DNA of 64,000 nt from Balneola sp. (GTDB taxonomy: Bacteria; Bacteroidota; Rhodothermia; Balneolales; Balneolaceae): contig RHLJ01000001.1 of assembly GCA_003712055.1 (NCBI GenBank), positions 558,001 through 622,000 of the forward strand, read 5' to 3'. Below the pieces are notes generated by a model. It was not told the origin of the DNA. It made no database searches and was given only the letters and a program-made list of their open reading frames with translations. Numbering within the stretch: the first letter of the stretch is position 1; every line of letters begins with the position of its first letter. The translations under genes were made by a program, and so were the position numbers. Shown in pieces: positions 2,907 to 27,660 of this stretch.

Positions 2907-4208
2907 ATGGACTTATCTAAGATTTTATTAGTACTGAAGCGTGAATACCTCACCCGGGTTAGAACACGATCATTCATCTTGTCCACTTTGCTTACACCGT
3001 TAGCATTTGTGGCTTTTATGGCCATCATTGTAATTGTTTCTATTAGTGATGGTGAAGTAGAAAAAACGGTTGGTATCGTTGATGAAACAGGTGTGCTTTA
3101 TGAAAGACTGATTGCTGTAGACAGCCTTCGGTACTATGACCTCAGTAATATGGAAATGGACACTATTAGAGCCAATGTACTATCCGGTGATATTGATGGT
3201 TTTGTAGTGTTAACAGAAGCACTAATACAGGACACTGAGGAACCTTCCCTAATTTACGGGGGTAGTGGCGGACTCAGCTTTATCGAAGCAGTAGAAACAG
3301 ATCTTCAAAACGTAGTTAGGGAAGAACGTCTTGCCAGAAGTGAAGTATCTGATGAAATAAGGCAGATTTTTGAATCTCGTTTTGATGTGAACCCTGTTAA
3401 GCTCACCGAACAAGGAGAAGAACAAGATAACGCAGTATTCGGAGCTATTTTTGGCTTCATATTGGGTTTATTCATATTCATCGGGGTGTTTGGCTATGGG
3501 GCACTTTTAATGAGAGGCGTTATTGAGGAGAAAACCAATCGAATTGTTGAGGTTATCGCATCTTCGGTAAAACCCATTGAACTTATGCTAGGCAAATTGT
3601 TTGGTATTCTTGCCTTAGCACTTACCCAATTTGGAGTTTGGATAGCTTCCTATATTGGCCTTTCAATCATAGCTGCTCCTCTTGCGGCAATTATTGTTGA
3701 TGCCCAAACGAGCAGCTTACCTCCTGAAGCAGCGGAGGCAGCAGCAAGCCAGGCTTTTGATCCATCTAAGCTGGAACAGTTTATTGTTGATCCTTCCGTG
3801 TTTGTATTCTTCTTTGTGTTCTTCTTTATCGGCTTCCTTATTTATAGCGCTATTTTTGCGGCAATAGGTTCAGCTGTTGATTCGGAGCAGGATACGCAAC
3901 AATTTATGCTTCCTGTTATGATTCCGATCTTTGTTGGATACTTCCTGAACTTAAGAGTGATGGAGAATCCCGATTCTACTATATCGGTAATTGCTTCGCT
4001 ATTCCCGCTTACAGCTCCGATTAATATGATATCCAGGATTGCAGCTACTGAAGTTCCATTTTGGCAATGGGGACTTTCTCTCCTACTCATGATTGGTACT
4101 TTTGCAGGACTTATGTGGTTAGCTGCTAAGGTTTACCGTGTGGGTATTCTTATGTATGGTAAAAAAGCATCGTACAAAGAACTTGTTAAGTGGATACGGC
4201 AAGGATAA
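2907..4208 (+). CDS. ABC-2 type transporter permease (NatB-like)
   Basis: Membrane subunit paired with the preceding ATPase. The 433-residue protein starts 'VLKREYLTRVRTRSFILSTL', the usual cytoplasmic elbow of NatB/YhaP-type permeases. It has one N-terminal membrane helix (about 22-46), a long extracytoplasmic domain (about 50-185), and then five or so hydrophobic helices to the end. 'GVIEEKTNRIVEVIASSVKP' in the middle is a hallmark of the family. A strong GAGGAGGAA ribosome site lies 10 bases ahead, inside the end of the ATPase gene. A hairpin with a T-run follows at 4222-4266, so this is likely a two-gene operon. Confidence 0.9.
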   Translation: MDLSKILLVLKREYLTRVRTRSFILSTLLTPLAFVAFMAIIVIVSISDGEVEKTVGIVDETGVLYERLIAVDSLRYYDLSNMEMDTIRANVLSGDIDGFVVLTEALIQDTEEPSLIYGGSGGLSFIEAVETDLQNVVREERLARSEVSDEIRQIFESRFDVNPVKLTEQGEEQDNAVFGAIFGFILGLFIFIGVFGYGALLMRGVIEEKTNRIVEVIASSVKPIELMLGKLFGILALALTQFGVWIASYIGLSIIAAPLAAIIVDAQTSSLPPEAAEAAASQAFDPSKLEQFIVDPSVFVFFFVFFFIGFLIYSAIFAAIGSAVDSEQDTQQFMLPVMIPIFVGYFLNLRVMENPDSTISVIASLFPLTAPINMISRIAATEVPFWQWGLSLLLMIGTFAGLMWLAAKVYRVGILMYGKKASYKELVKWIRQG

Positions 4209-26030: not shown

Positions 26031-26375
26031 ATGGCTTATGATGAAGGCTTAACAGATCGCATACGGTCAGTACTCGATCAAAAAGGAGTACTATTTGATG
26101 AGAAAAAGATGTTCGGGGGACTTTGCATATTGGTTGACGACAAAATGTGTATTGGGATAATTAAGGATGAAATGATGGCTCGTATTGGTGAGGAAGCGGA
26201 AGCCTCTGTTCAAGGAAGAGCCGGTGTTCGTCCCATGGATTTTACCGGAAAAAAGATGAAAGGCTTTACTTACGTTAATCAAACCGGATTGGATCGTGAG
26301 GAAGACCTGGAATTTTGGATTGATTTATGTCTTGAATTCAATCCAAAGGCGAAATCCAGCAAAAAGAAAAAGTAA
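26031..26375 (+). CDS. TfoX/Sxy N-terminal-domain protein
   Basis: 114 residues, single TfoX_N domain: 'KKMFGGLCILVDDKMCIGIIKDEMMARIGEE' near 26-56 and 'MDFTGKKMKGFTYVNQTGL' near 74-92, then a lysine-rich tail ('KSSKKKK'). In gammaproteobacteria full-length TfoX controls competence. The free N-terminal domain is widespread and of unknown function, so no competence role is claimed. A good AAGGAG site lies 8 bases before the ATG. Confidence 0.82.
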   Translation: MAYDEGLTDRIRSVLDQKGVLFDEKKMFGGLCILVDDKMCIGIIKDEMMARIGEEAEASVQGRAGVRPMDFTGKKMKGFTYVNQTGLDREEDLEFWIDLCLEFNPKAKSSKKKK

Positions 26376-26435
26376 TGGTTTTTTGAGCGCTTTTTACCTT
26401 CCTTTATTAGGAAGACTCACTATAACAGAACCATT

Positions 26436-26555
26436 ATGACTTCAAATTGTAACTGTACTAATTGCTCATGCACAAATTGTTCATGCAAAAACTGCAAAGC
26501 AAATCATTGTCCTTGTGAAAAATGTGATTGCACTTCTTGTTCTTGCTGCAGTTAG
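26436..26555 (+). CDS. Metallothionein-like 39-residue Cys-rich protein
   Basis: ATG 26436 to TAG 26553-26555 encodes 39 residues with 14 cysteines at 5, 7, 10, 12, 15, 17, 20, 25, 27, 30, 32, 35, 37 and 38, plus one His (24). The cysteines follow a strict C-x-C-x-x period. The DNA shows degenerate 15-bp tandem units coding T-N-C-S-C. Such density and CxC/CxxC spacing are those of metallothioneins, which bind Zn, Cd or Cu(I) in thiolate clusters. It does not match the SmtA/BmtA pattern that I know. The next gene begins 3 bp after its stop, so they are probably cotranscribed. There is no clear SD sequence. Confidence 0.65.
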   Translation: MTSNCNCTNCSCTNCSCKNCKANHCPCEKCDCTSCSCCS

Positions 26556-26557
26556 CA

Positions 26558-26968
26558 ATGAAAAACCATTTCAAGCTTGATGATCAATCCTTCGAGCAAA
26601 AATTCAGCGATTGTTCATTTGATCCTGGCCTATTTTCACATGAAGCTCATCTCAGACTAGCCTGGATCCATATTAACAACTATGGTCTAGAAAATGCCAT
26701 CAACAATATGAATGAGCAGATTAAGCGCTATGCACACTCCCTTGGGTTCGATTCTAAGTTCAACCGTACGGTTACAGAAGCAGCAGTAAAAGCCGTCCAT
26801 CATTTCATGCAAAGATCAATATCGAATAACTTCCGGGATTTCATCCAAGAATTTCCTGGGCTGAAATACAAATTCAAGGAATTACTAGCTGCTCATTATA
26901 GCATTGACATATTTACCTCCGAAGAAGCTAAACTGCAATTTATAGAACCGGACCTCTCTCCTTTCTAA
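26558..26968 (+). CDS. Conserved hypothetical protein ('FSHEAHLRLAW' family)
   Basis: 136 residues from ATG 26558; an upstream in-frame ATG (26528) lies inside the Cys-rich gene and gives a non-homologous hydrophobic lead. Conserved-looking block 'CSFDPGLFSHEAHLRLAWIHINNYGLENAINNMNEQIKRYAHSLG' near 18-62; the rest is helical with 'TEAAVKAVHHFM'. Histidines (His28, plus the HH pair) could bind metal. I do not know its function. Its place directly behind a metallothionein-like gene makes a metal-related role possible but unproven. Its stop overlaps the rsmE stop by 4 bases. Confidence 0.7.
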   Translation: MKNHFKLDDQSFEQKFSDCSFDPGLFSHEAHLRLAWIHINNYGLENAINNMNEQIKRYAHSLGFDSKFNRTVTEAAVKAVHHFMQRSISNNFRDFIQEFPGLKYKFKELLAAHYSIDIFTSEEAKLQFIEPDLSPF

Positions 26969-27660
26969 AACAAGTATTGAGATAATAAAGCCGTAACAGC
27001 AGTCTCTGCCCTTAATCGATTTACTCCGAGGGAAACGATCTCACCCTTTCTCTTTTTGATAAGTTCAACTTCTCTTTCTGAGAAACCGCCTTCAGGCCCT
27101 ACGAAAAGTACATTATTCTTCTTTGTTAACTTTCCAGCTTTTGAAGTTGAATCTGCCTTTTCATGAGCCATAATCCATCCAGCTCCTTTATAATGCTCAA
27201 GAACTTCGTCCATAGAATCCAGTATCACAAGTTCTGGTAGCCAATAACGTCCACTTTGTTTAAAGGCACTGACAATCAGAGTATGCAGCCGATCCCTATT
27301 AATTTTTGGACGTTCTGTATGATCTGAGTTAAAAAGGCAAATCTCCCAAACTCCAAGTTCTACAGCCTTCTCAATGGCGAATTCTAATCGATCTCGTTTT
27401 TTTATTGCACCAAATGCCAATGTTTTTTTGAAAGAAGGTTCTGGCTTAGTTGTTGACGTACCACATTTTGCAACTACCAAATGACGGTTAATCTCTGTTA
27501 TTTCGCAGAAATAAATCTCCCCTCTCCCATTGGCAACTCTAATTTCACTCCCAACTTGTTTTCTAAGCACTTTTGAAATATGTTGCGCTTCCTGTCCTTT
27601 GAGCTCAACCCAATGATTGTCCTCAAAATCCTCGATGGGAGCGTAAAATAAAGTGTCCAT
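26965..27660 (-). CDS. rsmE: 16S rRNA m3U1498 methyltransferase RsmE
   Basis: Methylates N3 of U1498 in 16S rRNA using SAM. 231 residues with the N-terminal PUA-like part ('EAQHISKVLRKQVGSEIRVANGRGEIYFCEI') and the SPOUT domain with trefoil knot: 'KKRDRLEFAIEKAVELGV', 'VLFVGPEGGFSEREVELI' and 'SLGVNRLRAETAVTALL', all diagnostic. Last gene of a minus-strand set dcd-like / BFD-like / rsmE with 4- to 5-bp junctions. Confidence 0.95.
   Translation of the reverse strand: MDTLFYAPIEDFEDNHWVELKGQEAQHISKVLRKQVGSEIRVANGRGEIYFCEITEINRHLVVAKCGTSTTKPEPSFKKTLAFGAIKKRDRLEFAIEKAVELGVWEICLFNSDHTERPKINRDRLHTLIVSAFKQSGRYWLPELVILDSMDEVLEHYKGAGWIMAHEKADSTSKAGKLTKKNNVLFVGPEGGFSEREVELIKKRKGEIVSLGVNRLRAETAVTALLSQYLF

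Follow-up and report, generated by a model that had tools for sequence, protein, structure and literature searches.

Metallothioneins of the SmtA/BmtA/NmtA type (PF02069) are small, Cys-rich, cytosolic proteins of bacteria. NmtA is controlled by a SmtB/ArsR-type repressor (PMC8790569). MymT of Mycobacterium tuberculosis, a small Cys-rich protein outside the SmtA type, is a copper metallothionein under the repressor RicR (PMC10141476). CorE-type regulators are ECF sigma factors with a C-terminal Cys cluster, a CXC in the sigma2-sigma4 linker and no adjacent anti-sigma gene (PMC8999054). In CorE and CorE2 the C-terminal Cys domain and the linker Cys are both needed, and the response is to Cu or to Cd/Zn (PMC8999054, PMC9023288). 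In OrbS, an iron-starvation sigma factor, the C-terminal Cys cluster is an on-board metal sensor, and Fe(II) inactivates the protein (PMC9023288). In the open-access literature searched, no paper was found that links SigZ with a metallothionein, and none on a sigma-controlled metallothionein in Bacteroidota.

The locus described here lies in a stretch of 64,000 nucleotides of a Balneola genome, hereafter the window (Table 1). Its metallothionein (MT)-like peptide resembles SmtA/BmtA/NmtA in being small, Cys-rich and free of a signal peptide, with metal sequestration as the presumed role. It is shorter, carries its 14 Cys in two blocks of seven and has no PF02069 match, and the partner of its family is an ECF sigma factor instead of a SmtB/ArsR-type repressor. 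MymT, compared by description, is likewise outside the SmtA type, but answers to RicR, whereas the present family is tied to a dedicated sigma factor. That partner shares C-terminal and linker Cys and the lack of an adjacent anti-sigma gene with CorE/CorE2 (formerly ECF44, now ECF238). It differs from CorE in a CC after sigma4, in a C-terminal Cys pair and in a linker CC in place of CXC, the last of which puts it outside CorE by sequence; its apparent target is one metallothionein, not efflux pumps and oxidases, and its best family match is SigZ. By analogy the partner plausibly works like CorE. The CC after sigma4 is common to the partner and a Priestia plasmid SigZ (TIGR02959, NF007215), whereas the linker CC and the C-terminal pair mark the subclade that accompanies the MT peptide. 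OrbS is similar in its C-terminal Cys and differs in Cys spacing and targets. The preferred reading, held at a probability of roughly 0.7, is a metallothionein-like scavenger with a dedicated, autoregulated, CorE-like metal-sensing sigma factor, of which the window carries a sigma-less orphan.

Table 1. Features of the MT locus, in window positions
Feature	Position	Strand	Basis
TfoX N-terminal domain protein, upstream neighbour conserved within the genus	26031..26375	+	Pfam PF04993, synteny
Upstream region; -35 block altered, -10 block (CATCTACC in relative G001) absent	26376..26435	+	comparison with relatives carrying the sigma-type promoter
Inverted repeat CTTCCT-TTATT-AGGAAG, in place of the lost promoter	26398..26414	.	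sequence; fold calculation
Putative metallothionein (MT)-like mini-protein, orphan of the sigma-linked family	26436..26555	+	translation, orthologs, family comparison
FSHEAHLRLAW protein, 136 aa, bystander linked to rsmE	26558..26968	+	synteny in relatives
RsmE-type 16S rRNA methyltransferase, conserved downstream neighbour	26965..27660	-	Pfam PF04452, synteny

Cysteine-rich protein of the window

The ORF is translated as MTSNCNCTNCSCTNCSCKNCKANHCPCEKCDCTSCSCCS. As originally predicted, the product has 39 residues, 14 of them Cys (36%); aromatic residues are absent, and in small size and richness in CxC and CC it has the sequence features of a metallothionein in the functional sense. Its Cys fraction is the highest among the 741 window ORFs of 20-100 aa (runner-up 21%). 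The layout is CxCxxCxCxxCxCxxC followed by CxCxxCxCxxCxCC, two blocks of seven Cys separated by the four-residue linker KANH, with CC at the end. The strict C-x-C-x-x period first described is kept inside each block and broken by the linker and the terminal CC. The degenerate 15-bp repeats noticed in the DNA are weak but real (two copies of 17 nt at a distance of 15 bp, 88% alike) and follow from an amino-acid period of five codons. The next gene begins 3 bp on, as claimed, with an ATG at 26558. Conservation in relatives, on which the original prediction was staked, is found: same-genus orthologs sit at the same position (G001, 41 aa/14 Cys; G002, 36 aa/12 Cys). Judged from its sequence and that of its relatives, the ORF is a real gene.

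The downstream FSHEAHLRLAW protein had been suggested as a partner in metal handling. Its homolog stands beside rsmE with no Cys-rich ORF near it in six Balneolaceae genomes, and among the matches listed no MT locus beyond the window's genus contains it. For both reasons it is a bystander, tied to rsmE and not to the Cys peptide. No significant Pfam or NCBIfam match is obtained for its family. The gene has rsmE as a conserved convergent neighbour, and a distant paralog is present in the window genome (G000:C1:813531-813941).

Distribution and conservation of the family

The search pattern consisted of the first nine Cys and one Asn only, was applied to one genome per GTDB species and matched at least 117 stretches. 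With TGC/TGT repeat artefacts taken out and loci of the genus and phylum searches put in, at least 79 loci remain, about 75 of them distinct. Their products are 35-49 aa long and follow the frame C.C..C.C..C.C..C....C.C..C.C..C.CC; among the members listed, the five Cys outside the search pattern are also almost invariant. All records with a title seen among the matches listed belong to Bacteroidota (flavobacteria, cytophagia, sphingobacteria, Saprospiraceae, Balneolaceae). Substitutions at codon positions 1/2/3 number 4542/4008/12404, counted over 829 non-independent pairs. The conserved frame and the third-position bias mark the Cys-rich ORFs as a translated gene family.

Pfam and NCBIfam give no match for 39 family members, and PDB sequences hold no significant counterpart. 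The PF02069 profile, run over the window genome, finds a single unrelated weak place and passes over the ORF. The Cys spacing had been thought unlike that of SmtA/BmtA, and in these profile comparisons the family indeed is not SmtA/BmtA. Carriage on plasmids was considered and rejected, no MT match being found among the plasmids searched; viral carriage likewise, the 21 viral pattern matches all being repeat or read-through artefacts. A further Cys-rich peptide, CTCVVCTCGTCTCHNCTCNPCSCGSKSC, is present without an adjacent sigma gene in L079 (G139:C14, about 3555-3794), between a multicopper-oxidase-like gene and a gene for an AraC-type regulator whose N-terminus is heavy-metal-associated-like.

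Partner sigma factor

In 73 of 79 MT loci among the matches listed, a count inflated by phylogenetic non-independence, MT is directly followed on its own strand by the gene of a SigZ-like ECF sigma factor. The flanks of the pair are diverse: 116 flanking proteins fall into 111 Pfam families, the commonest of which occurs in six only. Because all other surroundings change, the pair is evidently held together against reshuffling. Among 394 genomes of the phylum, six contain a sigma factor scoring at least 230 bits, exactly those with both sigma and MT genes; the next score is 171.

The partner has sigma2 and sigma4 regions and passes the TIGR02937 cut-off, as an ECF sigma factor does. Its best NCBIfam matches are the SigZ models, both below cut-off: 138 and 146 bits with TIGR02959 (cut-off 168.65), 144 and 155 bits with NF007215 (cut-off 212). 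Six Cys are invariant in 65 aligned members, with one position at 64/65; one CC lies in the sigma2-sigma4 linker, a second directly behind sigma4, and the remaining two Cys are paired at the C-terminus. The AlphaFold model has the ECF fold (mean pLDDT 85; pTM 0.47, domain placement not reliable), and its top PDB matches are ECF sigma factors.

A metal-resistance context is not the rule at MT-sigma loci; the 116 flanking proteins are diverse and mostly not products of metal genes. In Zeaxanthinibacter and a same-genus relative (L077, L078; about 0.8-4.2 kb) the pair is the tail of an ArsR-DUF-ArsC-ACR3 operon, whose gene names were assigned by sequence inspection (ArsC-like phosphatase, ACR3-like transporter).

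Promoter motif

The motif TGTATCYTTT-N13-GTCTAC, of constant spacing, is present upstream of MT in 67 of 68 testable sigma-positive loci, a rate that is descriptive because the consensus was drawn from largely the same loci. Its end mostly lies about 25 bp before the MT ATG. For the same reason the test is the contrast with sigma-negative loci: none of the six with enough upstream sequence, i.e. the window and five others, has the motif (Fisher p 4e-8 to 5e-9 depending on cut-off, values made optimistic by relatedness). One of 222 shuffled controls passes at the stricter cut-off.

None of 33 whole genomes has more than one perfect motif, and where there is one it stands at the MT operon. Additional sites with one mismatch are about as frequent in these genomes as matches to a reversed-pattern control, and a wider sigma regulon was rejected. 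The simplest reading is that the pair would be an autoregulated two-gene unit without a large regulon.

Loss of sigma factor and promoter in the window lineage

Gene order is TfoX - MT - sigma - FSHEAHLRLAW protein - rsmE in G001, TfoX - MT - sigma - rsmE in G002, TfoX - MT - FSHEAHLRLAW protein - rsmE in the window, and TfoX - FSHEAHLRLAW protein - rsmE, with neither MT nor sigma, in G014. No partner-type sigma is found anywhere in the window genome (best ECF match 78 bits, against 277-280 in positives). Upstream of the window MT, the -10 block falls in an 8-bp alignment gap. The sigma gene and the -10 block have both disappeared from this genome. The inverted repeat in this region was considered as an RNA structure and rejected (z -1.5, not significant).

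Six further genomes have an orphan MT and no sigma genome-wide; some are drafts or have the locus at a contig edge, where a missing contig could hide the sigma gene. Sigma and promoter were apparently lost together more than once, with the peptide retained. A by-eye look for a Bacteroidota primary-sigma promoter upstream of the window MT gave none that is convincing, and the orphan could for this reason be silent or decaying. The TfoX-domain gene is a possible source of read-through transcription. In two other sigma-less loci (L111, L160) the MT gene is followed by one for a conserved protein of 94-113 aa (FLSFFKKNK...EGYCPNCWGRQEYGG); both have TAYCTTTAAGG upstream, which resembles a housekeeping promoter element.

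Other cysteine-rich mini-proteins beside SigZ-like sigma factors

In the phylum sample, 11 of 38 lower-scoring SigZ-like loci have a different Cys-rich mini-protein next to the sigma gene. These are proteins of 33-34 aa/11 Cys upstream of sigma (L237, L238, L239, L246), of 26-27 aa/8 Cys downstream of sigma (L242, L244, L245, all in the window's taxonomic family), of 43 aa/13 Cys downstream of sigma (L251), and of 48 aa/13 Cys (L266) and 28 aa/10 Cys (L267) beside sigma, together with a Cys-rich frame beside sigma in G184, found by reading the locus. The automated count of 12 included two sigma-internal ORFs (L241, L249) and omitted G184; the corrected total is 11. An adjacent Cys-rich ORF occurs in 1 of 38 antisense controls and on 1 of 32 strands at other ECF genes of the window genome. 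At least five different frames with 8-13 Cys are represented, with spacing unrelated to that of the window peptide. This small sample suggests that SigZ-like sigma factors repeatedly team up with mini-metallothioneins. L274 is also among the loci with a Cys-rich mini-protein beside a SigZ-like sigma. On a mobilizable Hymenobacter plasmid (L229, NZ_CP110138.1) a SigZ-like sigma with a Cys-rich C-terminus is encoded about 2 kb from arsC/ACR3.

Proposed mechanism and alternatives

The 14-thiol peptide, taken to be cytosolic, would bind several soft metal ions. By position, MT is gene 1 and the SigZ-like ECF sigma gene 2 of the presumptive two-gene unit. RNA polymerase loaded with this sigma would transcribe the pair from the motif described above; autoregulation is proposed because motif and sigma co-occur. 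The sigma factor probably senses metal through its own six invariant Cys, with no anti-sigma factor, as in CorE/CorE2. A rise in metal would cause the sigma to fire, the peptide would accumulate and sequester the metal, and the response would switch off. In the window species current expression of the orphan is presumed, by other means, perhaps read-through from the TfoX gene.

That the Cys ORF is a chance or low-complexity frame is so improbable as to be negligible. Repeats of TGY can yield the Cys pattern, and the viral and many genomic pattern matches are such repeats, but length, frame, start and synteny are conserved across dozens of genera, substitutions favour the third codon position, and a promoter is linked. 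The peptide might be a regulator, either a small thiol-based anti-sigma factor or a donor of metal. It would keep the sigma switched off for as long as neither metal nor oxidant alters its thiols. One-to-one pairing and the lack of a detectable regulon beyond the pair are in keeping with such a role, which is nevertheless unlikely: the peptide is kept in seven sigma-less genomes including the window's, the sigma has invariant Cys of its own, and the occurrence of several unrelated Cys frames in the same seat beside SigZ-like sigmas better fits a bulk ligand.

Quite unlikely, too, is an answer to thiol/redox stress or arsenite rather than to general metal excess, with the peptide as a thiol reservoir. 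Two pairs end ArsR-ArsC-ACR3 operons and the vicinal CC pairs of the sigma suit arsenite or disulfide chemistry; most loci, however, have no arsenic or redox genes alongside. The scavenger with its own metal-sensing sigma factor is preferred. Extension of this reading to the whole class is tentative and stands a little short of even odds: SigZ-like ECF sigmas would be metal/thiol sensors with an adjacent mini-metallothionein as main target, several unrelated families of mini-metallothionein would have come to occupy that place, and in lineages like that of the window the sigma would have been dropped and the peptide put under other control.

Significance

The family is a putative new bacterial metallothionein-like family, outside current annotation models. 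SigZ-like sigma factors gain a concrete candidate job and a promoter sequence. The joint loss of sigma and promoter in the window lineage and the other orphans is a natural experiment that favours the circuit. If the preferred reading is true, two small genes would make up a complete metal response, one for a sigma that acts as sensor and one for a scavenger.
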